Of a stretch of 42,105 bases of DNA, positions 7,435 to 40,477 are shown one piece after another. How positions within the stretch are numbered: position 1 is the first letter of the stretch; each line of letters begins with the position of its first letter. The stretch is taken from positions 1 through 42,105 of the forward strand of contig JABMQW010000208.1 of assembly GCA_013203115.1 (NCBI GenBank), read 5' to 3'. Below the pieces are notes generated by a model, which saw only the letters and a list, made by a program, of their open reading frames with translations, had not been told where the DNA came from and made no database searches. Both the position numbers and the translations under genes were made by a program. Origin of the DNA: Fidelibacterota bacterium (lineage in GTDB: Bacteria; Fidelibacterota; Marinisomatia; Marinisomatales; TCS56).

Positions 7435-7437
7435 GGT

Positions 7438-7914
7438 TTATCCCCCATAATGCCAGTTAGTATGTTCCATGGTTAGTATTTCCGTATCGCGGCGAAAGTG
7501 AGTGGCAACTATTTTGCTAATAACGGGATGATGATCGCCAATTTCAATAATTTTTCGCAGTTCAGCTTCGATTATCATTGGGCTGTCACAGAGCAACGGC
7601 AGATCGTAGGTGCTGTTTTCATAAAGGTAGCCATTGATCTGATGAGCATCAAATGTTTTTGATTTGAAAAAATCCGCAACCAGATCTTTACGGTCACGGT
7701 CAATAAAATGCAGAGCAAAGCAGTGCTGCTCAGTTACGGCTTGATAAATTGTTGAATCCACCTTGAGCGCGGTCATGATCAGTGGTGGATTCAATGCTGT
7801 TTGAGAGACAAATGATACTACCGTTGCGACCGGATCACCGGCCAGACGGGTAGTCATAATATACAGACCATAAGGAATCTGACGCAGAATGGTCTTGCGA
7901 TCGCTGGAAACCAT
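7438..7914 (-). CDS. flavin reductase family protein (FMN-binding split barrel)
   Basis: GLYIMTTRLAGDPVATVVSFVSQTALNPPLIMTAL typical of flavin reductase-like domain; abuts the Fe-S oxidoreductase. Confidence 0.82.
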   Translation of the reverse strand: MVSSDRKTILRQIPYGLYIMTTRLAGDPVATVVSFVSQTALNPPLIMTALKVDSTIYQAVTEQHCFALHFIDRDRKDLVADFFKSKTFDAHQINGYLYENSTYDLPLLCDSPMIIEAELRKIIEIGDHHPVISKIVATHFRRDTEILTMEHTNWHYGG

Positions 7915-7921
7915 TAAATAA

Positions 7922-8605
7922 TTATTTTGTACTGGAAACTTTGTTTTTCTTGGGAATTTGCAATGAAACTTTCAGGGTCAAGCCAGTTAAGCGCGAGTAC
8001 TCCGATGGCATGCCCGAAGGAGAGATATGCGGTTTGTCACCGTAACTGGCGGCATTTTCGGCGCTATCATGATCCCAGTTGAAGGAAAAAACTTTTAATA
8101 ACGGCATTGATGCAAAATCGTGACAATAGCCCAACTCAACCGCGACGCGGGTCCCGATGGTGGTCCCCAGCACCAGACCAATCCGGGAGCTGGTATTATC
8201 ACTGATTCCCTTAGGAATATACATACCTCGAAAACCAATCCAAAAAGTGGTGGGTTTCCCATTGGGCGCAACTCGCGAGCGAAGCTTATAATAGGTAAAA
8301 TCAATGTTGGGATTATGGTTTAATGACCAACTGATATTCAACATGTCCCAGCGATTTTCCCGTTCAAACAGGATTCGACTCCAGTCGATTCCCGTACCAT
8401 AGATCGGTAGACCTAAACGCAGACCAATACTGGTATAATCGGATAAACCTCTTTGGTACCAGTAATAGGGAAATACATTTTCAATCGAAAAAGCATAGCC
8501 TGTGACCGATTCTCCCTTGTGTAATCTGGTAGTTGGTATAGTCGGGTGGGTGGAACAACCGCTTAAAACAAGCAACAGGACGAGCGCAGATAGGTAACGA
8601 AGCAT
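7922..8605 (-). CDS. outer-membrane-type lipoprotein of unknown function
   Basis: From internal Met (MLRYLSALVLLLVLSGC) there is a clean lipobox LSGC; ORF track start at 8662 adds an unlikely N-terminal extension. Confidence 0.65.
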   Translation of the reverse strand: MLRYLSALVLLLVLSGCSTHPTIPTTRLHKGESVTGYAFSIENVFPYYWYQRGLSDYTSIGLRLGLPIYGTGIDWSRILFERENRWDMLNISWSLNHNPNIDFTYYKLRSRVAPNGKPTTFWIGFRGMYIPKGISDNTSSRIGLVLGTTIGTRVAVELGYCHDFASMPLLKVFSFNWDHDSAENAASYGDKPHISPSGMPSEYSRLTGLTLKVSLQIPKKNKVSSTK

Positions 8606-18240: not shown

Positions 18241-19383
18241 ATGAATGTTCTTCTACTAGATAGCACGGTCATCAAAACTTGGTCAGGTGTGAATAAATGG
18301 ATGCTTATGACAGCCAAAGGACTGCGTGAACGGAGACATACGATTTACTGTGGTGGGAAATTAAACTCTCTGTTTACTGATGTCTGTAGTAAGGAAGGTT
18401 TTTGTACCTACTCTTTAAAATTCGGAATGGATTTCAACATTCTCAACGGCTATCGATTATCAAGAATTATTCGTCGTCATCAAATAAATGTTGTAATCGG
18501 ACACTATAATAAAGATGTTAAATTGGCCAGCATAGCCAGAATCTTCTTTAAGCCATTTATCATTATTGCACGTGCCGGGCTACCGAGCGTACACAATAAT
18601 TGGCGCTACCGTTTAACTTTTAAACGTATGGCTGATGGAGTTATTACAAATACGATTGCTATTAAAAAAAAGTATTTGTCCTACGGCTGGATGGAGGATG
18701 ATTTCATTCGCGTTATTCCTAATGGAATCGATCTCAACGTACCTACTGATTTTAACTTCAAAGACATCAGGCAAAAATATAATCTGCCGAAACAACGTCC
18801 GGTAATCGGAATTTTTGGCAGGTTGGAACCCCAAAAAAAGATAAATCTTTTTTTAGATGTCGCTAAAAACATACGGAACGAATATTCTGAAGCAATCTTT
18901 CTGATAGTTGGAGATGGATCCCTGAATGATAAAATTCAACAATATGCTTGTGATTTGGGTATTGATGATAGTGTAATAATGATGGGACATCAAAATAATC
19001 TCCATGCCATATATGCCTATTGCGACATTGTCTTACTTACTTCAGCCTATGAAGGAGTCCCAAATGTTCTCATCGAAGCGATGTTATTCAAAAGACCTGT
19101 TGTAGCCTTTGATGTCGGAGGCGTAAAGGAGCTAATACAATCCGGAAAAACAGGTATAGTGGTTCCCTTTAATGATGTGCAATCGATGACTAAAGAAACA
19201 TTAGAATTGATAAAGTCCGATGAAGTCCGCGAAAGCCTCGGGCGGGCGGCACAGAGCCATATAAAAGAGAATTATTCGATTGAGAAAATGGCTACCAGTA
19301 TTGAATACTATCTAAAGGAATTAATGGACCGTAAATCAAATGGTAAAAAAGGACCTCAAGCGGCGAACTCCATTAGGAATTGA
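18241..19383 (+). CDS. glycosyltransferase family 4
   Basis: GIFGRLEPQKKINLFLDVAKNI, ADLV-equivalent YCDIVLLTSAYEGVPNVLIEAMLFKRPVVAFDVGG. Confidence 0.92.
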   Translation: MNVLLLDSTVIKTWSGVNKWMLMTAKGLRERRHTIYCGGKLNSLFTDVCSKEGFCTYSLKFGMDFNILNGYRLSRIIRRHQINVVIGHYNKDVKLASIARIFFKPFIIIARAGLPSVHNNWRYRLTFKRMADGVITNTIAIKKKYLSYGWMEDDFIRVIPNGIDLNVPTDFNFKDIRQKYNLPKQRPVIGIFGRLEPQKKINLFLDVAKNIRNEYSEAIFLIVGDGSLNDKIQQYACDLGIDDSVIMMGHQNNLHAIYAYCDIVLLTSAYEGVPNVLIEAMLFKRPVVAFDVGGVKELIQSGKTGIVVPFNDVQSMTKETLELIKSDEVRESLGRAAQSHIKENYSIEKMATSIEYYLKELMDRKSNGKKGPQAANSIRN

Positions 19384-19513: not shown

Positions 19514-20809
19514 GTGAGACTCAGTATTTTAAATATGTGTAAAGCAATAATTACACGATCTTCAGGCGGAATAATTGCTGATTATAGTGAAAAAAGAGCA
19601 ATGAAACTTCTGTTATACACCAAAAAGGTTTTTAATAAAAACGGGTTACCTTTTTGGCTGGATTCCGGTACGCTTTTAGGTTTTTACAGAGACGGTCGAC
19701 TCCTTCCGTACAATAAGAAACTGACAATCGGTATTCCATCAGAATATCTCAAACGAATTATAGCTCTAAGGTCCTCTTTTCTACCCTGGTACAGATTACG
19801 TTTAAAATATGACAAGTCCGGATATAATTGGATTGATGGTAATGTCACAAAGATATCGGTTGTACCGACTCTGGACATCAGTCGAAGGACCCCCAGTTTG
19901 AGTATAAACCTAAAATTCAATAAAGGGGAGTATACTCGCTGGGTTAGCGGTTTAGCCTGCAAACAAGTATTATCAGAACACTTTTCCAATCTAGAATCAC
20001 ATACTTTTGCAGGGAGCACTTTTCAAACTCCGGGGAAAATTGAGAAATATCTAACAGCACGATATGGAAATTGGCACCAGATTGTAGACCGTTGGGATAC
20101 CAACTCCGACGATGGTTCCATTATTGATAAGAAAACCATGCTTAATCTCCCGCGGAAAACCCGCTGTACAAATCCAAAGCGATTCAGAAAAGTTGTTCAC
20201 TTACAAGGTAAAAATCTAATTAAATTGAAAAAAGTTCTCTCTGACACGATCTCACTGTTTGAAAAACATGATATTAAATATTGGCTTGATCACGGAACAC
20301 TTTTGGGTATCATCCGTGATAAAGAATTAATACCTTGGGATCATGACGTTGATATCTGTATTTCTGGGGAAGATGTAGGAAAATTTCTGGCCATCAAAAA
20401 AAAATTCCCGTTCAAATACCGAATTAGTATGCGATATGATGATACTGGCAGACTACCTGGTACACTTCGTCTTGTTAAAATTAAATATTGGCATCGAAAA
20501 TATTTGCGTCTATTCAAGTTCCAAGAACTATTTCTGGATATCTTTATCAAATATAAGGTTGGTGATTATTATTACTGGATCGACACCCATACACCCAAAA
20601 GAGTAAAAGCCAAGTATCATGATGATCTTGATACAATCTATTGGGAAAACAGGGATTATGTTATTCCTTCCAATATTGATCAATATCTTACCGATAGATG
20701 GGGAGACTGGCGTACACCGGTTAAAGATTTTGATGCGAGCCTTGATGATTTAGCAATTTACGATCAGCTGCAGTATAAACCCAAAAGAAGAGCTAAGAAG
20801 CATGTTTAG
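19514..20809 (+). CDS. LicD-family phosphotransferase-like protein with two tandem LicD-type domains
   Basis: Repeat 1: FWLDSGTLLGFYRDGRLLPYNKKLTIGIP; repeat 2: YWLDHGTLLGIIRDKELIPWDHDVDICIS; each followed by a YLTARYGNW / YLTDRWGDWRTP C-terminal motif. GTG start as called. Confidence 0.85.
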   Translation: MRLSILNMCKAIITRSSGGIIADYSEKRAMKLLLYTKKVFNKNGLPFWLDSGTLLGFYRDGRLLPYNKKLTIGIPSEYLKRIIALRSSFLPWYRLRLKYDKSGYNWIDGNVTKISVVPTLDISRRTPSLSINLKFNKGEYTRWVSGLACKQVLSEHFSNLESHTFAGSTFQTPGKIEKYLTARYGNWHQIVDRWDTNSDDGSIIDKKTMLNLPRKTRCTNPKRFRKVVHLQGKNLIKLKKVLSDTISLFEKHDIKYWLDHGTLLGIIRDKELIPWDHDVDICISGEDVGKFLAIKKKFPFKYRISMRYDDTGRLPGTLRLVKIKYWHRKYLRLFKFQELFLDIFIKYKVGDYYYWIDTHTPKRVKAKYHDDLDTIYWENRDYVIPSNIDQYLTDRWGDWRTPVKDFDASLDDLAIYDQLQYKPKRRAKKHV

Positions 20810-22025
20810 TGCTGTAATCTTTATTCTATCACCATTAATATACTTGATTAACAAAATTATCCCGTTGAATAAAGGGAAAGTACTATTTTATGGTAAGCGC
20901 GGACTGTTTCATGGAAATCCTAAGTATTTATTTAATTATCTTATTGAGAAGCAATGGGGGCAACCACTATGGGTTACAAAATCAAAAAGTATATATCATA
21001 ATTTAAGTAAGCAATATTCGCAAAAGAATTTGGTTCTGCGGAAAGGAATCGTTGGGCAATTCAAGTATATTTATCATTACTTGACATCAACTGCAATAAT
21101 AATCCGAGGTAGGAATGATTGCTGGCACATGTTACGTTATACAAAAACAAAAAGGCGCAAGATAATCAACGTAGGTCATGGTATACTAGTACCGGGAAAC
21201 AAGAAAACAGGTATTGAAATACGATCATCAGGCAGATCAATCAGAAAAGAAATCAGACGAAGACGAGCAGTGACCCATTATACTATGTGTTCAGATATCG
21301 AAAAATATATCCGTGCCTCCGCTTATCATGTAAATATTGAAAATTTTGTTGTTACCGGTTTGCCATTAAGTGATATAATAATTAATTGCCACAATAAAAA
21401 ACAAACAACTGTAAAGTTGTTAATTGAATTATTAAACCCAAAAGTTGATTTCGTCAAGGTTATACTGTACGCACCAACGCATAGGGATGCAGGCCGATGG
21501 AAAGATAGTATTCACCGAAGTACCTTTTTCCCCTTCACCGATTTTGAATTAAAAAGATTACAGTTGTTTCTGGAAGAAAATAATGCGATTATGCTATTGA
21601 GAACGCATGATTTAGAAAATAAATTTGCGATAAAAGATCAATCTCAAACCAAATCGATCATTGATGATAAACGAATATTTTATTTCTCGCATTCTGTTTT
21701 ACTAGATGTAAATGAAATTTTACCTGTAGTGGATCTTTTAATTACTGATTTCTCAACGATTGCAACGGATTTCCTACTTTGCAATAGACCAATAATTTAC
21801 ATCCCTTATGACCTGAAGGAATACCACCGTGGGATTATTTTTGATTATGATACCTGGACACCTGGCGAAAAAGTCTATGATTTTAAACAATTTCTTAAAA
21901 CCGCACATGAATATTTAGCTCATCCGGAGAAAGACTCAGAACATCGAGAGCAGTTAAAAAGGATGTTCCACCAGTACTTAGATGGAAATAGCTGCGAACG
22001 TATTCTTAAACTGATTAAGAACTGA
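20802..22025 (+). CDS. CDP-glycerol glycerophosphotransferase (TagB/TagF-like) family protein
   Basis: NVGHGILVPGNKKTG, YAPTHRDAG, LLRTHDLENK, VDLLITDFSTIATDFLLCNRPIIYIPYDLKEY. Confidence 0.88.
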   Translation: MFSAVIFILSPLIYLINKIIPLNKGKVLFYGKRGLFHGNPKYLFNYLIEKQWGQPLWVTKSKSIYHNLSKQYSQKNLVLRKGIVGQFKYIYHYLTSTAIIIRGRNDCWHMLRYTKTKRRKIINVGHGILVPGNKKTGIEIRSSGRSIRKEIRRRRAVTHYTMCSDIEKYIRASAYHVNIENFVVTGLPLSDIIINCHNKKQTTVKLLIELLNPKVDFVKVILYAPTHRDAGRWKDSIHRSTFFPFTDFELKRLQLFLEENNAIMLLRTHDLENKFAIKDQSQTKSIIDDKRIFYFSHSVLLDVNEILPVVDLLITDFSTIATDFLLCNRPIIYIPYDLKEYHRGIIFDYDTWTPGEKVYDFKQFLKTAHEYLAHPEKDSEHREQLKRMFHQYLDGNSCERILKLIKN

Positions 22026-22096: not shown

Positions 22097-23113
22097 ATGA
22101 AATTGAAGTTTAATATTATTTATTCACCCGGGGATGTGCTGTACTCGAGGCTGTTTCTATTAAGTTTGTTAAAATGGTCTGAAGGTAGTTTTAGAGTAGT
22201 CAATAATGGTTGTACAGGCCAAGAAAAGGAAATGATAATACAGTTTTGTGATAATTATTCGCGTCTGGAATACTATGAATTATCTTCAGATAAGGTATTT
22301 GCGCATGGAGCCGCGTTATCACATCTTCAATCAATTGAAGATTCTGATTATTTTTGCTTTATGGATCCTGATATTTTTGGTGTTGGCAATTTCATGGATC
22401 AGTTCATTCCACTCACACAGCAGTTCTGTGGAGTTTTTTCAGGGAGCGCAATCTGGCAACCGGAACAAGACCAAATCATTGAAAAATTAAATTTACGTGT
22501 TGGGGGAAGATTTCATTGGACCAGCGATAATTTTTGTCTTGGTAGTTCATTTTTTGCAATCTACCATAATGACACCTTATCTCAACTTCTCAAGGATACC
22601 GGTATTACCTTTGATAAATATTTATCCTGGCAAAGTATACCTAATAATCTTCGAGAAGGAATTGAGAAAATCGGCTTAAAGAAAAAAGCCTATGATACTG
22701 GAAAGCTTATTAATATTATGTTGCAGGTCAACGGACATAAAATCATCTATAAGAACTCCGAAACTTTATGGCACCTAGGAGGATTATCTTCCCTATCAAT
22801 AGGTCCCCTTTCTAAGGTACCTCCGAAAGGTATAAAAAGAATCCGTAAAAATATCAGTACACGGATATCATTAAAGAGTATGATAAATAGAGCAGCGCGT
22901 AAAGAAAGAGAGTATCAGTTAAACATCAAATATAATAGATTCGATACAGCACAGTATTTTACTAAGGTTTTACATTGTTTGTTTGATGGCCTTCCGGTAA
23001 CAGCCACACTAAAGGTTAAAGATGAAGCTGTCTCGAAAAAGATACAAATAGCACGCAATTATATTGAAGATCTATACAACGAATTTCAAGATGAACTTCG
23101 ATATGACAATTAA
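22097..23113 (+). CDS. putative GT-A-type glycosyltransferase (uncharacterised)
   Basis: DYFCFMDPDIFGVGNF (DxD-type metal site) after an SLLKWSEGSFRVVNNG N-terminal region; lies in glycan locus. Confidence 0.55.
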   Translation: MKLKFNIIYSPGDVLYSRLFLLSLLKWSEGSFRVVNNGCTGQEKEMIIQFCDNYSRLEYYELSSDKVFAHGAALSHLQSIEDSDYFCFMDPDIFGVGNFMDQFIPLTQQFCGVFSGSAIWQPEQDQIIEKLNLRVGGRFHWTSDNFCLGSSFFAIYHNDTLSQLLKDTGITFDKYLSWQSIPNNLREGIEKIGLKKKAYDTGKLINIMLQVNGHKIIYKNSETLWHLGGLSSLSIGPLSKVPPKGIKRIRKNISTRISLKSMINRAARKEREYQLNIKYNRFDTAQYFTKVLHCLFDGLPVTATLKVKDEAVSKKIQIARNYIEDLYNEFQDELRYDN

Positions 23114-23520: not shown

Positions 23521-25356
23521 ATGACTAAATCTATCTACATACGACTGGCGAGTTTTGCATTTCAATATTGGCCCTATCTGGTAATATCAATGTTAGCGGC
23601 ATTTATTTATGTGACGCTAAATGGCGCATCATTATGGTTAACCGCGTCGCTGGTGAATAATATTTTAATGGATTTCAATGATCTGGTTAAACAGAATAAT
23701 GATTTATTAACTGCAACTAATTTAAGCATTAATGATCACTTAAAAATCTGGACCAATCAGCTAATCCTCCGTAAGACACCCATCGAAACATTAAAAGTTT
23801 TATGTCTCACGATCTTAACTGTATTTGTCCTTAAAAATATATTCCTGTACATAAAGAATATTCTGATTTCGTTCATTCAATACAAGCTGATCACACAATT
23901 ACGTGAGCAGCTTTATGAACATTACCATTCTATGTCGTTGTCGTATTTCAACCAACGGCGCTCCGGTGTCCTGGCCTCAATCATTATTAACGATGTTTCT
24001 TATATGCGCAGGGCTTTTGCAACCAGTTTTCAAAAATTGCTGGTTGAGCCAATAAATATATTATTTTTACTAGGTTTATTGTTTGTCATAAGCTGGAAAC
24101 TGTCCTTGATTGCGTTATTAGTCGTCCCCTTGGCTGGCGCTACTATTATTCTGGTCGGCCGCAGTATTCGCCGCAAATCGCTTCGAACAGCGGTTAAAAT
24201 CGCCGGGATAATGAATATTATTTACGAGACCTTTTCTTCCATACGAATTGTCAAAGCCTTTGGCATGGAAAATTATGAGGTAAAGCGGTTTAAGCGCGAA
24301 ACTAATAAATTTTTCAATCTAATATTGCGCCGCGCCCGCCTGCGTCACTTGTCGACCCCAATTACCGAAACTTTAGGCGTTATCATTGGTGTTACAATCC
24401 TGTGGTTTGGTGGTCTGGAAGTATTTAGCCAGCAGGGTATTACTGCTGAGGATTTCATTCGTTTTGTGATTCTGATGTTCTCTTTACTTACGCCTATTAA
24501 AACTTTAACCCATGTAAATATTGATCTTCAAGTCGGAATCGCCTCGGCCGAGCGAGTATTTAAGGTACTTGATACTGAGCCTATTATCACTGATGTTAAG
24601 CAAGCAATTGAGAAGACAGATTTTAAATCAGATATCAAGTTTCATAATGTTTTTTTCCGCTACCAAGATGATAATGATCGGGTACTGGAAGATATCAGTT
24701 TCTCTCTTAAAAAAGGTCAAGTACTGGCATTGGTAGGTCCCAGTGGTGCCGGCAAATCTACAATCGCAGATCTCATTCCGCGTTTTTATGACGTTACTGA
24801 CGGATCAATTACTTTAGATGGTCGCGATCTAAGGAACCTATCTCTAAAATCTTTACGCAATCTGATGGGGATTGTAACCCAGGAAACTTTTCTGTTCAAT
24901 GATACCATTGAAGCCAATATTGCCTACGGTTTACCTGATATACCAATTGCTAAGATACGTGAGGCGGCGACTATCGCCAATGCCCTGGAGTTTATCGAAA
25001 GACAATCGCACGGATTCAATACAATCGTTGGTGAAAAAGGCGTAAAACTTTCCGGTGGACAACAACAAAGATTAGCCATCGCCAGAGCGGTATTGAAAAA
25101 TCCACCAATTTTAATATTAGATGAAGCGACTTCCTCTCTGGATACCGAATCAGAACATAAAGTGCAAAAAGCTATTGAAATGTTGATGAAAGATCGTACA
25201 GTTCTGGTGATAGCACATCGTTTATCGACCGTCCAAAATGCCGATAAAATAATTGTTGTGGATCGAGGTAAAATTATAGAATCCGGTGTCCACAACGAGC
25301 TAATTAAAAAAGACGGTTTATACAAACACTTATATTCCGTTCAATTTGGATCATAG
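23521..25356 (+). CDS. ABC transporter, permease + ATP-binding (MsbA-like exporter)
   Basis: Six-TM N-terminal region; Walker A GPSGAGKST, signature LSGGQQQRLAIARA, Walker B PPILILDEATSSLD. Confidence 0.95.
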   Translation: MTKSIYIRLASFAFQYWPYLVISMLAAFIYVTLNGASLWLTASLVNNILMDFNDLVKQNNDLLTATNLSINDHLKIWTNQLILRKTPIETLKVLCLTILTVFVLKNIFLYIKNILISFIQYKLITQLREQLYEHYHSMSLSYFNQRRSGVLASIIINDVSYMRRAFATSFQKLLVEPINILFLLGLLFVISWKLSLIALLVVPLAGATIILVGRSIRRKSLRTAVKIAGIMNIIYETFSSIRIVKAFGMENYEVKRFKRETNKFFNLILRRARLRHLSTPITETLGVIIGVTILWFGGLEVFSQQGITAEDFIRFVILMFSLLTPIKTLTHVNIDLQVGIASAERVFKVLDTEPIITDVKQAIEKTDFKSDIKFHNVFFRYQDDNDRVLEDISFSLKKGQVLALVGPSGAGKSTIADLIPRFYDVTDGSITLDGRDLRNLSLKSLRNLMGIVTQETFLFNDTIEANIAYGLPDIPIAKIREAATIANALEFIERQSHGFNTIVGEKGVKLSGGQQQRLAIARAVLKNPPILILDEATSSLDTESEHKVQKAIEMLMKDRTVLVIAHRLSTVQNADKIIVVDRGKIIESGVHNELIKKDGLYKHLYSVQFGS

Positions 25357-25564
25357 CACATCGAAGATAAAGCATTTTTACAATTCAATGACGATTGAAA
25401 AAAATTACGATTCTTTGGATTCAATTACCTGGGAAGGAAGAACGATTTCAATACCTTCTCACGCCGAAGAATATTTACAGTTACGCTACGGGGATTGGAA
25501 AACTCCTGGCAGGAATTTTCTAGCTGGTCATCAGGATAGTTCGATCGCCGAACGAGGATTTTAA
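25346..25564 (+). pseudogene. orphan LicD C-terminal fragment
   Basis: ITWEGRTISIPSHAEEYLQLRYGDWKTPGRNFLAGHQDSSIAERGF aligns with LicD tail IYWENRDYVIPSNIDQYLTDRWGDWRTPVKDFDASLDDLAIYDQ in the 19514 gene; no catalytic LicD region present. Confidence 0.7.
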
Positions 25565-25637: not shown

Positions 25638-26939
25638 GTGAAAAAGGTTTACGTGGGGATGTCGGCCGATTTATTCCATTTCGGCCATTTAAATATAATT
25701 AACGAAGCAAAAAAACTGGGATATTTAATCGTCGGTGTATTAACAGATGAGGCGATTGCCAGTTATAAGCGACTGCCCCATGTTCCGTATAAACAGCGGA
25801 AGGTGATCGTTGAGAATATTCGTGGTGTGGATGAAGTTGTTCCTCAGGAATCCCTGGATTATGTTCCCAACCTACGGAAAATCAAGCCTGATTACGTAGT
25901 ACATGGCGACGATTGGAAAACAGGTGTTCAAAAAGAGACCAGACGGAGGGTTATTGACGCCTTAAATGAATGGGGTGGCAAACTGGTTGAGCCAACCTAC
26001 ACGGACGGAATTTCATCAACACAACTAATCAAAGCGGTGACTGAAAAGGGTACGACACCAAGCAAGCGTCAGAAAACATTGAGACGCTTATTAGATGTGA
26101 AACCAGTTGTACGAATTCTGGAAGCCCATAATGGAATTACCGGTCTGATTGTTGAAAAAACGAAAATATCGACTAATTTGGGGATACGCGAATTCGATGG
26201 TATCTGGTTAAGTAGCTTGACAGTATCGACTTCCAAAGGAAAACCAGATACAGAAGTGGTTGATTTTTCCTCCCGTTTTCAGACTATTGATGAAATTCTG
26301 GAAGTTACCACAAAACCGATAATCGTGGATGGTGACACAGGCGGAGACATTGAGCATTTCAGATTCCGGGTTCGTACCTTAGAGCGGATGGGCGTTTCAG
26401 CCATAATAATTGAAGATAAAATTGGCACAAAACGTAATTCTCTTTTTGGTACTGATGTGGTTCAAGAACAGGATACGATTCAGCACTTCGCCAAAAAAAT
26501 CTCGACCGGTAAAAACGCATTAGTCACCTCCGATTTCCTGATCATTGCCCGAATTGAAAGTTTGATCCTGAAACAGGGAATGAAAGACGCAATTAATCGC
26601 GCAAAAGCCTATATCGCCGCAGGTGCAGATGGAATTATGATCCACAGCAAAGAAAAGGATGGCAAGGAGATTGTTGAATTCTGCCAACAGTTCAGAACAT
26701 TTGAACCAGCACTACCACTAGTTGTTGTACCATCCACCTATGGTCATCTGACTGAAACAGAGCTGGCTGAGCTGGGTGTAAACATTGTCATTTACGGAAA
26801 TCACCTGATCCGGAGTGCCTATCCCTCAATGGTCCTGACCGCCGAAACAATCCTGAAAACCGGTCGCTGTAAAGAAGCATCAGATCAATATTGTATGCCA
26901 ATAAAAGAAATATTAACACTTATCCCTGAGGATTACTGA
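25638..26939 (+). CDS. bifunctional cytidylyltransferase-phosphoenolpyruvate mutase (Fom1-like)
   Basis: N-terminal nucleotidyltransferase motifs [13 protein letters not shown] (HxGH) and [11 protein letters not shown]-terminal PEP mutase signature [12 protein letters not shown] (EDKxxxKxNS) and VDGDTGG. Confidence 0.93.
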
Positions 26940-28072
26940 TGAGTATTTCACCAATTAATTTTTTTAATTTATTAACTAACGATGGCATCGATTTTTTTTC
27001 TGGAGTCCCGGATTCACTTCTAAAGGAATTCTGTTTATGCCTAGACGATAATGTAGCTCCCCAAAACCATGTGATTTCCGCGAATGAAGGGAATGCAATT
27101 GCCCTTGCAGCCGGGTATCATCTCGGAACCGGAAAATTACCCTTAGTGTACATGCAAAATTCCGGACTGGGAAATGCTGTTAATCCTTTAATATCGCTAT
27201 GCGATCCAGAGGTTTATTCGATCCCGATGCTGGTAGTAATTGGCTGGCGCGGGGAACCTGGAGTTGCTGATGAACCTCAGCATAAAAAACAGGGCCAGAT
27301 ACAGGAAAATCTATTAGCCGCTCTTGATCTACCATATATAACATTTTCTGCCACTGAAAATAATATCGAATCAAAAATCAATAAAGCCGTAACCAGCGCC
27401 ATGGCTGATAAACGGCCGTTTGTCATATTGGTGAAAAAAGGTACTTTCAGTAAATATGGAACATCGCTAAGCCAGAAAGAAACTGGTCTGATAAAACGGG
27501 AAAATGCATTGGAAATAATCCTGGAAAGTCTTCCGGATAATGCAATAATTGTTTCCACCACCGGTAAAACATCCCGAGAGATTTTTGAAATACGAGCTAT
27601 CCGAAACGAACCACATTATAAAGATTTTCTTACAGTTGGATCAATGGGACATTGTTCCTCAATCGCCCTTGGTATCGCTTTGTCTAAACCTGATCGGAAG
27701 GTTTTCTGCATCGATGGTGACGGCGCTTTAATCATGCATATGGGAAGTCTTGCAACGGCAGGCAAGCTGCAAGCCAAAAACTTATATCACCTTTTGATCA
27801 ATAATAAAGTACATGAATCGGTTGGAGGACAAAAAACTGCGGCTAACGGAATAAATTTACCCGCCCTGGTTAGATCAAATGGCTACAATTCTGTCCAATC
27901 ATGCAGTAAAAAGACTGATCTGAAAAAAAAGGTTGAACAATTTGTACTGGCAACTGGTCCGGCCTTCCTGGAATTGATTGTAGAGCCCGGTTCACGAAAC
28001 GACCTGGGTCGCCCTACCATCAAGCCTGTCGATAACAAACAGGAATTCATGAAATACATTTCCGGTGAGTAA
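26939..28072 (+). CDS. phosphonopyruvate decarboxylase
   Basis: ThDP enzyme motifs GDGALIMHMGSLATAGKL..LINNKVHESVGGQKT; FSGVPDSLLKEFC; translationally coupled (TGATG) to PEP mutase. Confidence 0.94.
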   Translation: MSISPINFFNLLTNDGIDFFSGVPDSLLKEFCLCLDDNVAPQNHVISANEGNAIALAAGYHLGTGKLPLVYMQNSGLGNAVNPLISLCDPEVYSIPMLVVIGWRGEPGVADEPQHKKQGQIQENLLAALDLPYITFSATENNIESKINKAVTSAMADKRPFVILVKKGTFSKYGTSLSQKETGLIKRENALEIILESLPDNAIIVSTTGKTSREIFEIRAIRNEPHYKDFLTVGSMGHCSSIALGIALSKPDRKVFCIDGDGALIMHMGSLATAGKLQAKNLYHLLINNKVHESVGGQKTAANGINLPALVRSNGYNSVQSCSKKTDLKKKVEQFVLATGPAFLELIVEPGSRNDLGRPTIKPVDNKQEFMKYISGE

Positions 28073-28119
28073 AGATTCCCCCTATATACCTATCCCATTG
28101 CAGATAAATTGAATCAAAT

Positions 28120-29226
28120 ATGACAGCAAATTATTTTAATCCGGTTAAGATCATCGACAGTGAAAATTGGCTCGAGTCCTGGCAGACAATCCGTAGAAAG
28201 CTCAGTATCAATAAACCATTAGTGATCACATTCAAAGAAAACGTCAGGTGTTTAGAGCTGGAAAAAATCTGTAGCCCGGCCGGTATGTTCACTGCTGTGG
28301 TCAATAATCCCACCTTCACAAGTTGCCAGGAAGCAATCGATTTTAGTCACAGTGACAGCTTTGATTGTGTTATCGCATTTGGTGGAGGGTCGGTAATGGA
28401 TACTGCCAAAGCTGTGATTGCTGCCCAGAGATCGGGGATTTACAATCTATCGGATTTACTGAATTACCGTGATAAATACACTAAAAGACTTCCTTCGATA
28501 TTTATTCCAACGACCCACGGAACATCCAGCGAAGTGACCATGTGGGCAACAATCTGGCATCCGGCTGAAAAGAAAAAATATTCCCTGTCGCACCCGGATC
28601 TATACCCCGATTATGCAATTCTGGACGGCGCCCTCACTTTAAGCCTACCATTAGATATTTCACTTTCCACGACTTTGGATGCTATAAGTCATAGTTTTGA
28701 GGCAATATGGAATAAAAATTCAAATGATCAGTCAACAAAATATGCTATCCAAGCCATCAGTCAGATTATCGAGAATATTGAAGGATTAAAGAATGATCCG
28801 TCTGATGTTCAAATCCGCCGAAATTTACTCAAAGCCGCCAATAATGCCGGACGGGCCTTTTCAAATACTAAAACTGCTGCTGCTCACTCAATCAGTTATC
28901 CACTCACTTCATTTTTTGACATCCCCCATGGGATAGCCGCATCCATGCCAATGATACCTCTAATCGAGATCAACCAGAAAGCTATTACTAAAGAATTGGC
29001 GCAACTCAATGCCAGATTAAATCTTGGGAGTAATACAGAACTTCAGTCTCTGATAAAATCAATACCCGGCAGTATAATTAAATTTAATCTTAAGGATTGG
29101 GGTGTTGATCGGGATGACCTGCAGATGCTGGTGAAACATTCATTTACTAAAGGCCGAATGGATAATAATATTGTTGATCTTACCAAGGATGATGTTGTCT
29201 GGATTCTTAACGAAATATATTCCTGA
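28120..29226 (+). CDS. iron-containing alcohol dehydrogenase, probable phosphonoacetaldehyde reductase (FomC/PhpC-like)
   Basis: AFGGGSVMDTAKAV, PTTHGTSSEVTMWATIW, DAISHSFEAIW, AAHSISYPLTSFFDIPHGIAASM; directly downstream of pepM-ppd. Confidence 0.87.
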   Translation: MTANYFNPVKIIDSENWLESWQTIRRKLSINKPLVITFKENVRCLELEKICSPAGMFTAVVNNPTFTSCQEAIDFSHSDSFDCVIAFGGGSVMDTAKAVIAAQRSGIYNLSDLLNYRDKYTKRLPSIFIPTTHGTSSEVTMWATIWHPAEKKKYSLSHPDLYPDYAILDGALTLSLPLDISLSTTLDAISHSFEAIWNKNSNDQSTKYAIQAISQIIENIEGLKNDPSDVQIRRNLLKAANNAGRAFSNTKTAAAHSISYPLTSFFDIPHGIAASMPMIPLIEINQKAITKELAQLNARLNLGSNTELQSLIKSIPGSIIKFNLKDWGVDRDDLQMLVKHSFTKGRMDNNIVDLTKDDVVWILNEIYS

Positions 29227-29275
29227 GCACCCGTGGTAATCTGGTAATGAGTCACATTGCAGGTTTCAATAGGTA

Positions 29276-30328
29276 ATGGTTTTGAAATATTTATTTTTTG
29301 TCACCAAATCCTATTCTTTCCCAATCCTGGAACCAGTACAAGATGCAGTAAACAAACTCGGCCGTGGATCGGTAGCCTGGTTTACTGCCAGCACAGCAAA
29401 AAATCATCCGCCACCGGGTCTACGGCTAACTTCATCAGAAGAGGTTTTAAATTATAACCCGGACGCAATCTTAGTACCGGGCAATATTGTCCCGCATTTC
29501 TGGCCAGGACTAAAAGTACAGATCTTTCATGGTATCGACGATGAGCCCAAAGGCTTCTACCGCATTACCGGTTTTTTTGACCTGTACTGCACTCCCGGTC
29601 CTGATATAACAACCAAGTTTAAGCAACTAGCACGGCGTAAAGGTCATTTTCTGGTTGAGGAAACCGGTTGGCCCAAGTTGGATCCAGTCGGTCCCATGGT
29701 CAATATTTCAGACACTGATAAAAGAAAATTGAAAAAAAAGTATGGTTTAGATCCCGATCAACCGGTTATTCTTTACGCCCCGACATTCCCACCCAAATAT
29801 ACCTCGGCACCGGACTTATTCCAGACAATCAAAGGCTTAAAGAATCGCTTCCAATGGCTGATAAAATTCCATCCCCTCATGAATAGGGATGTGCAGCAAC
29901 AGTATCAAAAATTACGCAATACTAACTTTATTATTTGTGAAGACTTAAATATTATTAATTATATGTCGGTAGCTGATTTGTTGATCACCGATACATCTTC
30001 GGTAGCGTATGAATTTTTAGCCTTTGATCGGCCCATTATTACCTACCGGGCAATTGCGCGACAAGACAAAGGAATTAATATAATTGCGGCGGAAGAATTA
30101 ATCGGCGCCATTGAACGTGCTATCGCTGAACCGCAGGAATTCTCTGAAAATAGAGCTAAATATCGTAATAAAATACATCCTTATGCGGATGGAAAGTCTT
30201 CGAATCGTATAATTAATTACATCGAAAATATCATCGAATCTGATTCGTATAAACAATTGAAACCTAAACCAAGAAATTGGATTCGAAAACGACAAATCAG
30301 AAAATTAATCGAAGCGAAGCGCAATTAA
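29276..30328 (+). CDS. CDP-glycerol glycerophosphotransferase (TagB/TagF-like) family protein
   Basis: IFHGIDDEPKGFYRITGFFDLYCTPG, GWPKLDP, ILYAPTFPPKY, IKFHPLMNRD, VADLLITDTSSVAYEFLAFDRPIITY. Confidence 0.82.
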   Translation: MVLKYLFFVTKSYSFPILEPVQDAVNKLGRGSVAWFTASTAKNHPPPGLRLTSSEEVLNYNPDAILVPGNIVPHFWPGLKVQIFHGIDDEPKGFYRITGFFDLYCTPGPDITTKFKQLARRKGHFLVEETGWPKLDPVGPMVNISDTDKRKLKKKYGLDPDQPVILYAPTFPPKYTSAPDLFQTIKGLKNRFQWLIKFHPLMNRDVQQQYQKLRNTNFIICEDLNIINYMSVADLLITDTSSVAYEFLAFDRPIITYRAIARQDKGINIIAAEELIGAIERAIAEPQEFSENRAKYRNKIHPYADGKSSNRIINYIENIIESDSYKQLKPKPRNWIRKRQIRKLIEAKRN

Positions 30329-30336
30329 GATAAGCG

Positions 30337-31449
30337 ATGAAAATTAAGATATTATTTAAAATGTTCTATTTATATCACAAAGCGGCCTATGATCCACTTT
30401 TAGAAGTATTTAAAAATGATCCGAAATTTGACGTAGCAATATCGTTGACTAATGAAGTAATACGATCCTTCGGTTTCCTGGATCGACAACAATCAGATAT
30501 CTATTTAAACCAGTTTCAAAAAGATGGTTATCGCGTAACCGATGAAAATGAACAGTTTGACATTGTAATTGTTCCGGATGTCGTGGATGAATCCAAATTC
30601 GGAAAAACTTTATTATGTCTGATCTATCATGGAATTACATTTACTAAAACGGTCACTTTTCGAGCACTGAATAAACATCGTGATCAGCGCTATATCATAT
30701 TTGCGGAAGGGAAATTTTCCGTAGCACAACTTCAGAAATCTGGTTGCCTGGGAAAATCTGAAATCCATAAAGTCGGTTATCCCAAGCTGGATCCCTATTT
30801 TAAAGAAGGACAGTTTGATCGAGAACAAATTATGATGTCGCTGGGATTGGACCCTGCTAAAAAAACGGTGGTATTTGCACCAACTTATAAACCCACCTGC
30901 CTATACGAAATAAAGGATGCGATTTTCGAAGCGACTAAAGAACATAATTTAATCATTAAACTCCATCATTATGCCTGGTCAGGGAAATATGCCCGCCATA
31001 GTCAACACCGTATTTTTGAGCGTCGCATACCAAAATATCCCCATGCTGTTCTTATTCCACAAGCAACCTATAATATTCTGCCACTGCTATATATCGCTGA
31101 CACATTGATTTCCGAAGCATCAGGAGCAATCACGGAATTTCTCGCAACCGGTAAATTCGGAATTATTTACGATTTGGACCACGAAAAATTAAGGCATTCG
31201 GATGGTGAACATTTGTTAACCAACGATAATCGCGAATTTTTAAGCGACTCCTTTGTCCATATCAGTCACCCCGATCAACTATCCGCCGGAATAAAACGGG
31301 CGCTTAATCCAACTCCCGATATGATTGCCGCTGCCAACAAAGAACGTAATTATTATTTTCATAAATTGGATGGTCACGCCTCGGAACGTACTAAACAGGA
31401 AATTGAACGACTTTTTGCCGAAGGTACCCATTTCAACCCGGTTGAATAA
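30337..31449 (+). CDS. CDP-glycerol glycerophosphotransferase-like family protein (divergent)
   Basis: IYHGITFTKTVTF, GYPKLDPYF, VVFAPTYKP, IIKLHHYAW, IADTLISEASGAITEFLATGKFGIIYD. Confidence 0.75.
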   Translation: MKIKILFKMFYLYHKAAYDPLLEVFKNDPKFDVAISLTNEVIRSFGFLDRQQSDIYLNQFQKDGYRVTDENEQFDIVIVPDVVDESKFGKTLLCLIYHGITFTKTVTFRALNKHRDQRYIIFAEGKFSVAQLQKSGCLGKSEIHKVGYPKLDPYFKEGQFDREQIMMSLGLDPAKKTVVFAPTYKPTCLYEIKDAIFEATKEHNLIIKLHHYAWSGKYARHSQHRIFERRIPKYPHAVLIPQATYNILPLLYIADTLISEASGAITEFLATGKFGIIYDLDHEKLRHSDGEHLLTNDNREFLSDSFVHISHPDQLSAGIKRALNPTPDMIAAANKERNYYFHKLDGHASERTKQEIERLFAEGTHFNPVE

Positions 31450-35937: not shown

Positions 35938-37014
35938 TTGGTGCTAATTATGAATAAACACAATTTGTTGTTACAAAATATTCCCGATTTTGTAGCACAT
36001 CTGCAAACCTATGGTGAGGTGCATGCTCCATGTCAGAAAGGGGAAAATTCATTCAGCTTTGAACAAGTAACCGATCCTAGTAGAGTCGTACTGGATTATG
36101 CACGGACATTACAATCGATCAGGAAATATTTCCTTCCTCCGACTGAACGCCTCCTGAATTTTTCCTTAACTGATAATACATTTACCAAAGTCGCAATAGA
36201 GAACAACCACCGAATCTTCCTGGGCGTTCATTCGTACGATATGAAGGCGGTTCTAAAGCTGGATTTTAATTTCAGTCACAGGACACCAGAAATTAATTAT
36301 CTGAAGCGACGTGAAAACTGCACTTTTATCGGAGTTTCATACGAGCCGGATGATTATCATTTCAGCCGCTCAGTAGGTATCACTGTGGAAAATACCGAGG
36401 GTTTTGATCTTTTCCTGGATCGTCATGAAAATGGATATACCGTACAAGTTCTGACCGAGCGGGGAACAGAAATCACAAAAGATTTTACTGCTTTAGGGGA
36501 AGCACTGGAGATACCGGAAATCAGCCGCCAGTTTAAAAATAAAATTAAATTTAATTACAATCGGCTGCCGGAAGTGATGGAACAATCCTGGAATTCACCG
36601 GTGTGGGAAGAGGTTGCCCAACGCTGTGTTGGCTGCGGCACCTGCAATCTGGTTTGTCCGACCTGTTACTGCTTCAATATGGTTGATAATGTCGATCTCA
36701 AATTAACCGATGGCTCCCGCGATCGCCATTGGGATGGCTGCCTGCTGAGTAGTTTCGCTGCCGTTGCCGGAGGTGAGAATTTCCGGGAAAAACTAGCGAG
36801 CAGACAGCGCCACCGTATATACCGCAAATTTAAATACATCACTGATAAAACCGGTGATCCCTGGTGTGTTGGTTGCGGTCGCTGCACGGCTTATTGCACA
36901 GCAGGAATCAGTATTGTTGAAATTGTGAACAGGCTCAGTGATGAATTTGAACAGACTCATTTAAGAAAATCATCCGCTCCGGTTGGACAGAAGATACAGG
37001 GAGTTTCATTATGA
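35938..37014 (+). CDS. [NiFe]-hydrogenase (sulfhydrogenase-type) beta subunit, 4Fe-4S
   Basis: CVGCGTCNLVCPTCYCFNMVDNVDL and CVGCGRCTAYCTAGISI; first gene of hydrogenase operon. Confidence 0.87.
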   Translation: MVLIMNKHNLLLQNIPDFVAHLQTYGEVHAPCQKGENSFSFEQVTDPSRVVLDYARTLQSIRKYFLPPTERLLNFSLTDNTFTKVAIENNHRIFLGVHSYDMKAVLKLDFNFSHRTPEINYLKRRENCTFIGVSYEPDDYHFSRSVGITVENTEGFDLFLDRHENGYTVQVLTERGTEITKDFTALGEALEIPEISRQFKNKIKFNYNRLPEVMEQSWNSPVWEEVAQRCVGCGTCNLVCPTCYCFNMVDNVDLKLTDGSRDRHWDGCLLSSFAAVAGGENFREKLASRQRHRIYRKFKYITDKTGDPWCVGCGRCTAYCTAGISIVEIVNRLSDEFEQTHLRKSSAPVGQKIQGVSL

Positions 37015-37859
37015 ATATCTTAACCAAACATGAACATACGCCACTGGAGTTGTATTACCCGGAAATGGCCGAGATCACGGCCGTTAATCAATTTACTGAG
37101 CTGGAAAAATGGTTTGAAATAAAATTACCGGATGGCAAGGAACTAGGGCACCAACCCGGTCAATTTGCCCTGTTCTCTATCTTCGGAATCGGTGAAGCCG
37201 CTATATCAATCTGCTCCGCACCTACCAAAAAAGGCGCCTTCGACATCTGTGTGCGTAAAGTTGGTATGCTGACTGAAAAAATGCACCAACTCGAAGTTGG
37301 GCAAAAAATCGGCGTCCGTGGTCCGTTTGGGACAGGCTTTCCCGTTAATGATTTCAAAGGCAAAGATATATTAATTATTGGTGGTGGAATCGGCATCGTT
37401 CCATTGCGATCCTTAATTAACCATGTGATTGCTTATCGTGAAGATTTCGGTCGTATAATCATCCTTTACGGTGCAAAAAACCCCGATGAACTACTTTTCC
37501 CCGACGAGTTGGAAAATTGGGATAACGATCCCAGTATCGAATATCATGTCACCGTTGACCAAGGCACACCTGAATGGCAAGGAAACACTGGTGTTATCAC
37601 CACATTGATCCCCGGTCTTGACCTGGATCTTGACAACACAATTGCCGCCATAGTAGGGCCTCCCATCATGTACAAATTTGTCCTGATGGCCCTTAAAAGC
37701 AAACGCCTGCCGGAAGATAATATTTACATGTCACTGGAACGGAGAATGAAATGTGGTGTCGGCAAATGCGGTCATTGTCAGATCAACGATTCCTATGTGT
37801 GTCTGGATGGGCCAGTTTACCAATTTTCCGATATTAAGAATCTGCCGGAGGCCATCTGA
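37011..37859 (+). CDS. hydrogenase gamma subunit, FAD/NAD(P)-binding reductase with [2Fe-2S]
   Basis: GQFALFSIFGIGEAAISICSAP, GGGIGIVPLRSLINHV, MKCGVGKCGHCQINDSYVCLDGPVY. Confidence 0.92.
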   Translation: MNILTKHEHTPLELYYPEMAEITAVNQFTELEKWFEIKLPDGKELGHQPGQFALFSIFGIGEAAISICSAPTKKGAFDICVRKVGMLTEKMHQLEVGQKIGVRGPFGTGFPVNDFKGKDILIIGGGIGIVPLRSLINHVIAYREDFGRIIILYGAKNPDELLFPDELENWDNDPSIEYHVTVDQGTPEWQGNTGVITTLIPGLDLDLDNTIAAIVGPPIMYKFVLMALKSKRLPEDNIYMSLERRMKCGVGKCGHCQINDSYVCLDGPVYQFSDIKNLPEAI

Positions 37860-38626
37860 TGAGTACCCAGACTGCACCGAAGACGAAACCACAAATCGCC
37901 TTTTTCGATTTCACATCCTGCGAAGGTTGCCAATTGAATAAACTAAACCTGGAAAATCACCTGCTCGAGATACTGGAACATGTGGACATCGTTGAATTCC
38001 GTGAAGCCATGGATGATAAGGCCGATGCTTACGATATCGCCTTTATCGAAGGATCCATATCCACCCCGAGTTGCGTAGAACGAATCCATGATATCCGCCG
38101 GCGCGCGAAAATCCTGGTCGCATTGGGTTCCTGTGCCGTGACGGGCGGTATCAATGCCATGAAGAATCTGCAGCCAATCGAGGATGTCCGCGAAACCGTT
38201 TATGGCAAAGACAAATATCTCTTTCCGACCCTGCCAGCCATGCCAGTATCGGCCATTGTGAAAGTAGATTACGAGATCCACGGCTGCCCTATGAGCATCC
38301 CCGAATTCCTGGTCGTATTTAAAGCGCTGGTTATGGGCAAACAACCAATCAAACCCGATTCTCCTGTGTGTGTTGAATGTAAACTGAGGGAAAATGAATG
38401 TTTATATGACCGCGGAATGGTTTGTCTGGGACCGATTACCCTCAGTGGTTGTGATGCTATTTGTCCCAGCTTCGGGCAATTTTGTACCGGTTGCCGCGGG
38501 CTGGTACCCGACGCCAATAAGAATGCCATGCTTGATATCCTGACCGATCATGGACTGTCCCTGCAGGAAGCTGAAAAGCGGTTATTGCTATTCAACAGTT
38601 ACAAGCAACCGGACACATTCAAATAA
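37859..38626 (+). CDS. [NiFe]-hydrogenase small (delta) subunit
   Basis: FFDFTSCEGCQLN, ALGSCAVTGGINAM, EIHGCPMSIPEF, CLGPITLSGCDAICPSFGQFCTGCRG. Confidence 0.93.
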   Translation: MSTQTAPKTKPQIAFFDFTSCEGCQLNKLNLENHLLEILEHVDIVEFREAMDDKADAYDIAFIEGSISTPSCVERIHDIRRRAKILVALGSCAVTGGINAMKNLQPIEDVRETVYGKDKYLFPTLPAMPVSAIVKVDYEIHGCPMSIPEFLVVFKALVMGKQPIKPDSPVCVECKLRENECLYDRGMVCLGPITLSGCDAICPSFGQFCTGCRGLVPDANKNAMLDILTDHGLSLQEAEKRLLLFNSYKQPDTFK

Positions 38627-38670
38627 CACATTGCTGCTCGCAATATTTAAAGGTTCACAAAGGATTTACA

Positions 38671-39987
38671 ATGAGTAAAAATCTAGACATTAATGTACAT
38701 CATCTTACTCGTGTCGAAGGACATGGCAATATTGTTATCAATATGAAAGAGGGGCGGCTGGAGAAGGCGGAATTACAAATTGTTGAGGCTCCCCGCTATT
38801 TTGAAGCCCTGCTGAAAGGTCGTAGTTTCCATGAAGCTGCGATTATTACTTCGCGAATCTGTGGTATCTGCGCACTGGGCCATCAGATTGCTTCTTTAAA
38901 AGCTACAGAGGATGCACTTGGGTTGGAAGTCTCCGAACAGACCATTCTGTTGCGGAAACTGCTGGTAAATGGCGCTACCCTTCAATCAAACGTGCTGCAT
39001 GTCTATTTTCTAGTAGCCCCGGACCTTCTGAACGCACCTAGTGTATTTCCGCTGATCCCAACCCATAAGAATGTAATCCTGCGGGCTCTGCGAATGAAGC
39101 GTCTCGCCAATGATATTGGTGATATTGTCAGCGGTCGCGCGGTTCATCCGATCACTCCGGTCCCCGGTGGCTTCACCCACATACCCACGGCCGGTGAGTT
39201 AAAAGAACTCCGCCGCCGTCTAATCGAAGAAGGTCTCCCGGACGTGGTGGAAACCGTGAAAACAATCAAATCCCTGGCCGGTAGAATTCCCGATTTCGTG
39301 CGCGAGACTGAATATATTTCACTGCAGGATAAAAATGAATATGCCCTTTATGACGGGGAAATCTTTTCCTCCGATACCGGCGCTACCGCTGTTCGCAATT
39401 ACCGTGATATTACTAGTGAATTCGTTGTAGCGCATTCCACCAGCAAACATGCCAGGCATGCACGCAGCAGTTATATGGTTGGCGCCCTGGCCCGTTGGAA
39501 CAACAACCACAACCAATTGACCGAAATATCGCTCAATGCCGCGGAAGAGATGGGATTGAAACCCGATTGCTACAATCCTTACCTGAATAATGTTGCCCAA
39601 GTTGTGGAATGTGCGCACTGTGTCGAAGATTCAATCGCTATCATCGATCGTCTATTAGAGCTCGGTTTAAAAAATGAAAAACCGAATCAAACACCAACCA
39701 AATACGGTGTCGGTATCGGCTCAACTGAAGTACCACGGGGAATTCTTTTCCACGAATATGAATATGATCGTAAAGGTAATATCGTTTTTGCCAATTGCAT
39801 TATTCCGACCGGTCAGAACCTGGCCAATATCGATGACGATATGAAGAAACTGGTACCGGAAATCATCGATAAACCCAAAAAGGATATCACTAAACAGCTC
39901 GAAATGCTGGTACGGGCTTATGATCCTTGTATCTCTTGCTCAGTTCATTTATTGAATGTAAAATTCATCAATGACTCAGAAGATTAA
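38671..39987 (+). CDS. [NiFe]-hydrogenase large (alpha) subunit, group 3b-type
   Basis: L1 motif RICGICALGHQ, L2 motif DPCISCSVH near C-terminus with cleavable tail LLNVKFINDSED. Confidence 0.94.
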   Translation: MSKNLDINVHHLTRVEGHGNIVINMKEGRLEKAELQIVEAPRYFEALLKGRSFHEAAIITSRICGICALGHQIASLKATEDALGLEVSEQTILLRKLLVNGATLQSNVLHVYFLVAPDLLNAPSVFPLIPTHKNVILRALRMKRLANDIGDIVSGRAVHPITPVPGGFTHIPTAGELKELRRRLIEEGLPDVVETVKTIKSLAGRIPDFVRETEYISLQDKNEYALYDGEIFSSDTGATAVRNYRDITSEFVVAHSTSKHARHARSSYMVGALARWNNNHNQLTEISLNAAEEMGLKPDCYNPYLNNVAQVVECAHCVEDSIAIIDRLLELGLKNEKPNQTPTKYGVGIGSTEVPRGILFHEYEYDRKGNIVFANCIIPTGQNLANIDDDMKKLVPEIIDKPKKDITKQLEMLVRAYDPCISCSVHLLNVKFINDSED

Positions 39988-40477
39988 ATCGGAGACGATT
40001 GAAATTTCAGACTCTGCCAAAATGAAAATTATTGCAGTAGGCAACAGTCTTTATGGCGATGACGGTATCGGTGAAGCGGTCTTGAAGGCTCTCACCGATA
40101 TTCCCGAACTGGAGAATGTGGATTTGATCGACGGCGCCACGGATGCCCTGGGATTGATCGACTATTTTACCGATACCGATCATGTCATTATCATCGATGC
40201 CGCCAGCATGAATAAAGAACCGGGCACGGTACAGGTTTTTAATTCCGATCAGGTTGATTTGATGATTAAAACCGATCATTTATCCTTACATGGTATCAGC
40301 CTGGCGGAGACTTTTGAAATTGCGAAGCTGGCTGACGAATTGCCTAAAAAAATTACTATTATCGGAATTGAGCCAATGCAGCTTAATGTAGCCTCCGGTC
40401 TCAGTGAACCGGTGGAACAGGCAATTCCAGTTGCCGTAACCAAAATAATTGAAATACTTCAATCATCAACCTTATAA
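39971..40477 (+). CDS. hydrogenase maturation protease
   Basis: KIIAVGNSLYGDDGIGEAVL, DGATDALGLIDYF, IIDAASM, LSLHGISLAE. Met at 40022 (MKIIAVGN) is an alternative start. Confidence 0.92.
   Translation: MTQKIKSETIEISDSAKMKIIAVGNSLYGDDGIGEAVLKALTDIPELENVDLIDGATDALGLIDYFTDTDHVIIIDAASMNKEPGTVQVFNSDQVDLMIKTDHLSLHGISLAETFEIAKLADELPKKITIIGIEPMQLNVASGLSEPVEQAIPVAVTKIIEILQSSTL

Follow-up and report, generated by a model that had tools for sequence, protein, structure and literature searches.

Positions 25638 to 31449 on the forward strand of contig JABMQW010000208.1, from a Fidelibacterota bacterium (assembly GCA_013203115.1), are likely a five-gene operon, and its products probably make CMP-activated 2-hydroxyethylphosphonate (CMP-HEP; CMP, cytidine monophosphate) and use it for the decoration of a surface polymer. 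The window, as the whole stretch analysed is called here, is one entire contig of 42,105 nucleotides (nt), and the genome to which it belongs, a 2.64-Mb draft metagenome-assembled genome (MAG) that is 88% complete, was also searched. Gene content, family membership, conserved residues and conserved co-occurrence are observed, and from them we infer every reaction, above all the transferase donor, the acceptor and the surface location. A first-pass annotation had already put forward CMP-HEP as a donor for a surface polymer, and co-occurrence, residues and whole-genome evidence now lend support to that proposal.

The phosphoenolpyruvate (PEP) mutase half of the first protein would convert PEP to phosphonopyruvate, which the decarboxylase encoded next would turn into phosphonoacetaldehyde and an iron-dependent alcohol dehydrogenase (Fe-ADH) into 2-hydroxyethylphosphonate (HEP); the N-terminal domain of the first protein, of the type found in Fom1, would then form CMP-HEP from HEP and cytidine triphosphate (CTP). 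The HEP phosphonate would be passed on to a hydroxyl group of the acceptor, a surface glycan or teichoic-like polymer, with release of CMP, by the TagF-like proteins encoded by the last two genes and/or by a LicD protein encoded upstream, in a manner analogous to TagF with CDP-glycerol (CDP, cytidine diphosphate). Genes for an MsbA-like protein and for glycosyltransferases alongside would provide for polymer assembly and export.

The core module and its operon

The gene at 25638..26939 has a GTG start and encodes a 433-residue fusion of a cytidylyltransferase (CyTase) to a PEP mutase. PF01467 spans residues 9-132, with HFGH at residues 14-17 and GISSTQLI at residues 124-131, and PF13714 (PEP_mutase) spans residues 149-406 with 194 bits; the score with the NCBIfam PEP mutase profile TIGR02320 is 389.6 bits, above the cut-off of 319.6, and the ten-residue EDKx5NS motif of this half is present. 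There is an overlap of 1 nt with the gene for phosphonopyruvate decarboxylase (Ppd/AepY; 26939..28072; TIGR03297 474 bits, cut-off 312.5), after which comes the Fe-ADH gene (28120..29226; PF00465 and PF25137). The first-pass annotation had named these three genes, their families, the HxGH, GISSTQLI and EDK...NS motifs and the coupling of the first two genes, and all are confirmed.

By context, the Fe-ADH is probably a phosphonoacetaldehyde reductase. It has the Fe-ADH domains and conserved metal ligands (D187, H256 and H270 are invariant across 76 aligned locus homologues), and it adjoins Ppd in a genome where no AEP transaminase (AEP, 2-aminoethylphosphonate) scored over the cut-off. With TIGR03405 (Phn_Fe-ADH) it scores 249.6 bits, under the cut-off of 423.7 though still the best of 14 NCBIfam matches, and so the assignment draws on context and residues. 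The gaps between Ppd and the Fe-ADH gene, between the latter and the transferase gene tagA, and between tagA and tagB are 47, 49 and 8 nt respectively; with the 1-nt overlap they make a five-gene operon likely, longer than the three genes to which the first-pass annotation had confined the module. A promoter scan gave sites no more numerous than in shuffled sequence.

A cytidylyltransferase domain of the Fom1 type

Among solved structures, Fom1 is the closest to the window CyTase. Identity between the window domain and the solved Fom1 domain is about 65%, and the first 133 residues of the window protein score about 195 bits (E 6.5e-57) with the Fom1 domain structure, 5x3d, against 76 bits with ethanolamine-phosphate and 57 bits with glycerol-3-phosphate cytidylyltransferase. 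A 94-row tree places Fom1 with fusions from Alteromonas and Stutzerimonas, inside the family of the window CyTase. This kinship and the common order of PEP mutase (PepM), Ppd and Fe-ADH bear out the earlier comparison to fom1-fom2-fomC. At L35, K44 and Y75 the window fusion agrees with Fom1, and it is thereby a member of the intact HEP-linked set described below, for which CTP:HEP activity is predicted.

That set came from a survey of the 80 best GTDB matches together with longer stretches from the host phylum, with genes called around each and a Fe-ADH or aminotransferase counted when no more than four genes from the fusion. There are 90 distinct fusion loci, 77 with a Fe-ADH, four with a class-V AEP-type aminotransferase, none with both and nine with neither, several of these nine being cut by contig ends. 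All 76 alignable reductase-linked CyTases are identical to Fom1 at L35, K44 and Y75. At these positions the four AEP-linked CyTases have H/F/Q, H/F/Q, H/W/Q and M/T/Y, K44 being replaced in every one (by F, F, W and T). Searches of plasmids, phages and IMG/VR for further AEP-linked fusions added just one, the more distant L154, with N at position 44; IMG/VR contributed none. The cases of K44 loss are on three separate branches, one of them sister to an archaeal reductase-linked protein that keeps K44. A separate MobA-type nucleotidyltransferase is encoded in all four AEP-linked GTDB loci (L056, L058, L061 and L079) as against 5 of the 76 reductase-linked ones, and those five all retain L/K/Y. 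Together the reductase versus transaminase, residue and MobA patterns point to the Fom1-type domain going with HEP and the MobA-type PntC with AEP. The window has no MobA-type PntC, and the best MobA-type match genome-wide (65 bits) is on another contig.

In two loci, L140 and L141, the PepM is only 34-35% identical to that of the window, but behind it are encoded a reductase with 53% identity to the window one and a nucleotidyltransferase of MobA type; these loci may hold HEP pathways with the other kind of activator. On contig C244 of the host genome (L150, 403-3130) a second nucleotidyltransferase, a stand-alone PF01467 protein and a GlpT/PgtP-like transporter are encoded in a row.

Transferases behind the reductase

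The last two genes of the operon encode TagF-like transferases, TagA (29276..30328), a candidate CMP-HEP:acceptor phosphonotransferase, and TagB (30337..31449), paired with TagA in 13 genomes of the phylum. Both pass the curated domain score of PF04464. Each has two histidines, one in an N-terminal HG and one in a KxH (H85 and H199 in TagA; H98 and H210/H211 in TagB), invariant in the 13 (TagA) and 11 (TagB) aligned sequences, and these match by motif the pair known to be essential in the TagF family (Schertzer 2005, as cited in PMC5974469). TagA retains TDTSS. The first structural match of its model, with a predicted local distance difference test score (pLDDT) of 70, is TagF, at a low template modelling (TM) score of 0.53. 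Profile matches to solved relatives take both proteins to Cps3D, and TagA also to TarL and TagF; at about 350-370 residues, both fit the profile well only over its C-terminal part, on the donor side.

PF04464, LicD and CDP-alcohol transferases normally use CDP-alcohol donors, with attack by an acceptor hydroxyl and loss of CMP; what they have in common is chemistry and not a fold. Of the 62 loci where the reductase gene is followed by a gene on the same strand, 27 encode a PF04464 protein there, 14 LicD and two a CDP-alcohol phosphatidyltransferase. The resulting 43 of 62 compares with 54 of 979 for the same three families among other neighbours (Fisher 3e-34, a value only indicative, since the loci are related, relatives of the window are over-represented in the sample and the profiles derive from the same loci). 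That three families interchange in the slot behind predicted CMP-HEP synthesis is the strongest argument for CMP-HEP as donor, and the counts also give a positive answer to the neighbourhood search for the fusion beside LicD or TagF genes that had been suggested at the outset. In a patescibacterial locus (L073, 6278-8956) a single 892-residue ORF directly after Ppd combines Fe-ADH, LicD and a methyltransferase domain.

The arrangement is conserved. The nearest named record, JABMPO010000035.1 of Candidatus Neomarinimicrobiota, has a fusion 96% identical to that of the window. A search of 245 genomes of the phylum recovered the fusion in 23, matching over most or all of its length and in three of them with an in-frame stop inside the match, and the module is kept with TagA and TagB in at least 13. 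Related cassettes occur also in Bacteroidales, Spirochaetota, archaea and others.

Several points weigh against CMP-HEP synthesis and use by this operon. A lysine aligned with K44 is also kept by phosphocholine and phosphoethanolamine cytidylyltransferases, AEP-linked cases number only five, and K44 loss in them may reflect domain decay or redundancy instead of a switch in specificity. K44 by itself, once considered as proof of HEP specificity, was demoted to support on account of that aligned lysine and of the separate MobA-type enzyme in every AEP-linked GTDB locus. The reductase falls short of the curated phosphonate Fe-ADH cut-off. In TagB the TDxSS-like motif is altered to SEASG, and its structure model is of poor quality (pLDDT 63). 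A pathway to CDP-glycerol or CDP-ribitol may be encoded in the 12% of the genome that the MAG lacks, so whole-genome absences are supportive only. The system is known here from its genes, and its host is a MAG.

Alternative readings

CMP-HEP might be made as proposed and the TagF-like enzymes nevertheless use CDP-glycerol or CDP-ribitol for a teichoic-like backbone, with HEP added by LicD alone. TagF, TarL and Cps3D, the closest kin of the TagF-like proteins among solved structures, are in keeping with this division of labor, as are the LicD genes in the slot of 14 other loci and the intact LicD of the same region (19514..20809; two LicD-like halves), four genes upstream of the fusion. It is nonetheless unlikely: no glycerol-3-phosphate cytidylyltransferase reached the cut-off in the host genome, where the best match, far below, is the fusion itself, and TagA and TagB share an operon with the HEP genes and accompany them in 13 genomes. 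Furthermore, TagA and TagB are intact and the adjoining LicD gene is reduced to a remnant. What is left of that gene, at 25400..25564, is the last 54 codons, 67% identical to residues 344-397 of the LicD of the relative L039 (E 4e-19). In L039, L041, L042 and L120 an intact LicD lies between MsbA and the fusion, the order in several relatives being MsbA-LicD-fusion-Ppd-ADH-TagA-TagB; the near relative L032 has the same LicD 3′ end on a contig that begins inside LicD. The loss may be a real deletion or the outcome of faulty assembly. The first-pass annotation had the module flanked by LicD and TagB/F-like families. The TagF-like pair downstream stands, but with a mere remnant adjacent the claim is weakened for LicD, and TagA and TagB are favored as the transferases here.

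A variant in which the TagB/TagF-like pair primes a chain and then extends it with HEP from CMP-HEP, into a teichoic-acid-like polymer with a backbone held by phosphonate esters, is conceivable because HEP keeps a free C2 hydroxyl, though it is rather improbable.

It is very unlikely that the module serves to release a phosphonate that diffuses away (fosfomycin-like or of another kind) and that CMP-HEP is only a transient intermediate. CMP-HEP is an intermediate of the fosfomycin pathway (Cho 2017, as cited in PMC6697681) and the first three genes are in fosfomycin order, but the conserved neighbors are surface-polymer transferases, and the window ORFs scanned with Pfam include only a HemN-type radical SAM protein, with no cobalamin-binding radical SAM or other phosphonate tailoring enzyme. 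The late enzymes Fom3 and Fom4 are absent from these ORFs, as had been noted before, and a fosfomycin-like antibiotic cluster was rejected for that reason. Elsewhere, in a Portnoybacteria locus (L057, 13639-15063), a B12-binding radical SAM protein, possibly a Fom3-like methylase in a candidate-phylum genome, is encoded directly after CyTase-PepM, Ppd and Fe-ADH.

There is scarcely any likelihood of a phosphonolipid made from CMP-HEP by a CDP-alcohol phosphatidyltransferase: PF01066 genes are near the fusion in ten other loci, many archaeal, but none is in the window, and the three elsewhere in the genome may all be for the usual phospholipid enzymes. CDP-alcohol phosphatidyltransferases are encoded next to the fusion or near it in L047 (13978-14727), L060 (11302-12030), L069 (11302-12018), L072 (8908-9576) and L109 (11305-11979), several of them archaeal, and HEP phosphonolipids are possible in those loci.

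AEP as the product, which is that of the Pnt pathway described by Rice et al. (2019), was rejected and is the most improbable of all, for though PepM and Ppd are common to the AEP pathway, a Fe-ADH stands in place of the AEP transaminase (best match in the genome 40 bits, cut-off 361) and the window CyTase retains the HEP-linked residues.

Relation to known systems

The preferred reading, that the operon makes CMP-HEP and uses it on a surface polymer, has precedents for its parts. Fom1-Fom2-FomC, of fosfomycin synthesis in Streptomyces wedmorensis, are like the window in domain fusion, PepM-Ppd-Fe-ADH order and expected CMP-HEP product; what follows in the window is TagF-like transferases in a surface-polymer setting instead of the later fosfomycin enzymes. 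Phosphonoglycans of the actinomycetes Glycomyces and Stackebrandtia are said to bear HEP. On record through Yu et al. 2014 as cited in PMC8931226, they have a phosphonate ester on a bacterial exopolysaccharide, as proposed for the window, though their hosts are Actinobacteria. With TagF/TarL and Cps3D (PMC5974469) the window proteins have in common PF04464, the two catalytic histidines and chemistry of the CDP-alcohol donor type; the predicted donor of TagA and TagB is instead CMP-HEP.

PF01467 is fused to 23.6% of PEP mutase (Ppm) proteins (Rice et al. 2019, PMC6697681). That work put forward tailoring with CMP-activated phosphonyl groups and LicD-like transferases, and its assays addressed the AEP branch, which is of MobA type; it cites Fom1 for HEP, and the words glycerophosphotransferase and reductase are absent from its main text. 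The Pnt pathway resembles the window in having a CMP-activated phosphonate beside PepM, LicD-like transferases and glycan genes. It differs in that AEP is activated by the MobA-type (PF12804) PntC, as against predicted activation of HEP by a PF01467 Fom1-type domain with TagF-like transferases in the next slot. Segatella copri DSM 18205 (L152) has the same order, aepX-aepY-phosphonoacetaldehyde reductase-CDP-glycerol glycerophosphotransferase, already annotated in RefSeq, in an O-antigen-type locus; at 6284-8293 it has a triple fusion with a MobA-type domain in front, its CyTase part lacking HxGH and keeping K44.

The locus had been thought possibly undescribed. The common fusion, HEP-bearing glycans and CMP-phosphonate tailoring are already known, so that novelty narrows to the combination: no description of HEP, a Fom1-type CyTase and TagF or LicD as one system was found in the literature searched, subscription papers being mostly outside the search. 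The cassette, from HEP through its carrier to the surface, has enzymes of known types and is widespread and little described.

In marine high-molecular-weight organic phosphorus, according to PMC8931226, no phosphonates are more abundant than methylphosphonate and HEP. Which organisms make the two is known only in part, and a conserved operon supplies named enzymes as candidates; the link to marine phosphonate chemistry is attractive, if conjectural. A phosphonate-ester polymer, if made, would resist phosphatases and might contribute HEP to dissolved organic matter. Two rules are proposed, that a Fom1-type CyTase with L35/K44/Y75 activates HEP and a MobA-type PntC activates AEP, and that the acceptor, polymer or lipid, can be read from the kind of transferase that the next gene encodes (TagF-like, LicD or CDP-alcohol).

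The surrounding locus

All the genes upstream of the operon given here are on the forward strand, as is the LicD remnant. An MsbA/HepA-type ATP-binding cassette (ABC) exporter (23521..25356) is also beside the module in relatives. It is preceded by a protein with a weak glycosyltransferase-2-like signal (22097..23113; PF10111 E 0.017, under the cut-off), a full-length TagF/TarL-like polyol-phosphate transferase (20802..22025; PF04464, H126 and H269), the intact LicD and a GT4-type glycosyltransferase (18241..19383; PF00534 132 bits). The window holds every PF04464 gene of the host genome, three in all, and the one LicD gene that this genome was found to have. Further along, at 35938-40477, is an operon for a sulfhydrogenase-like four-subunit NiFe hydrogenase and a maturation protease.

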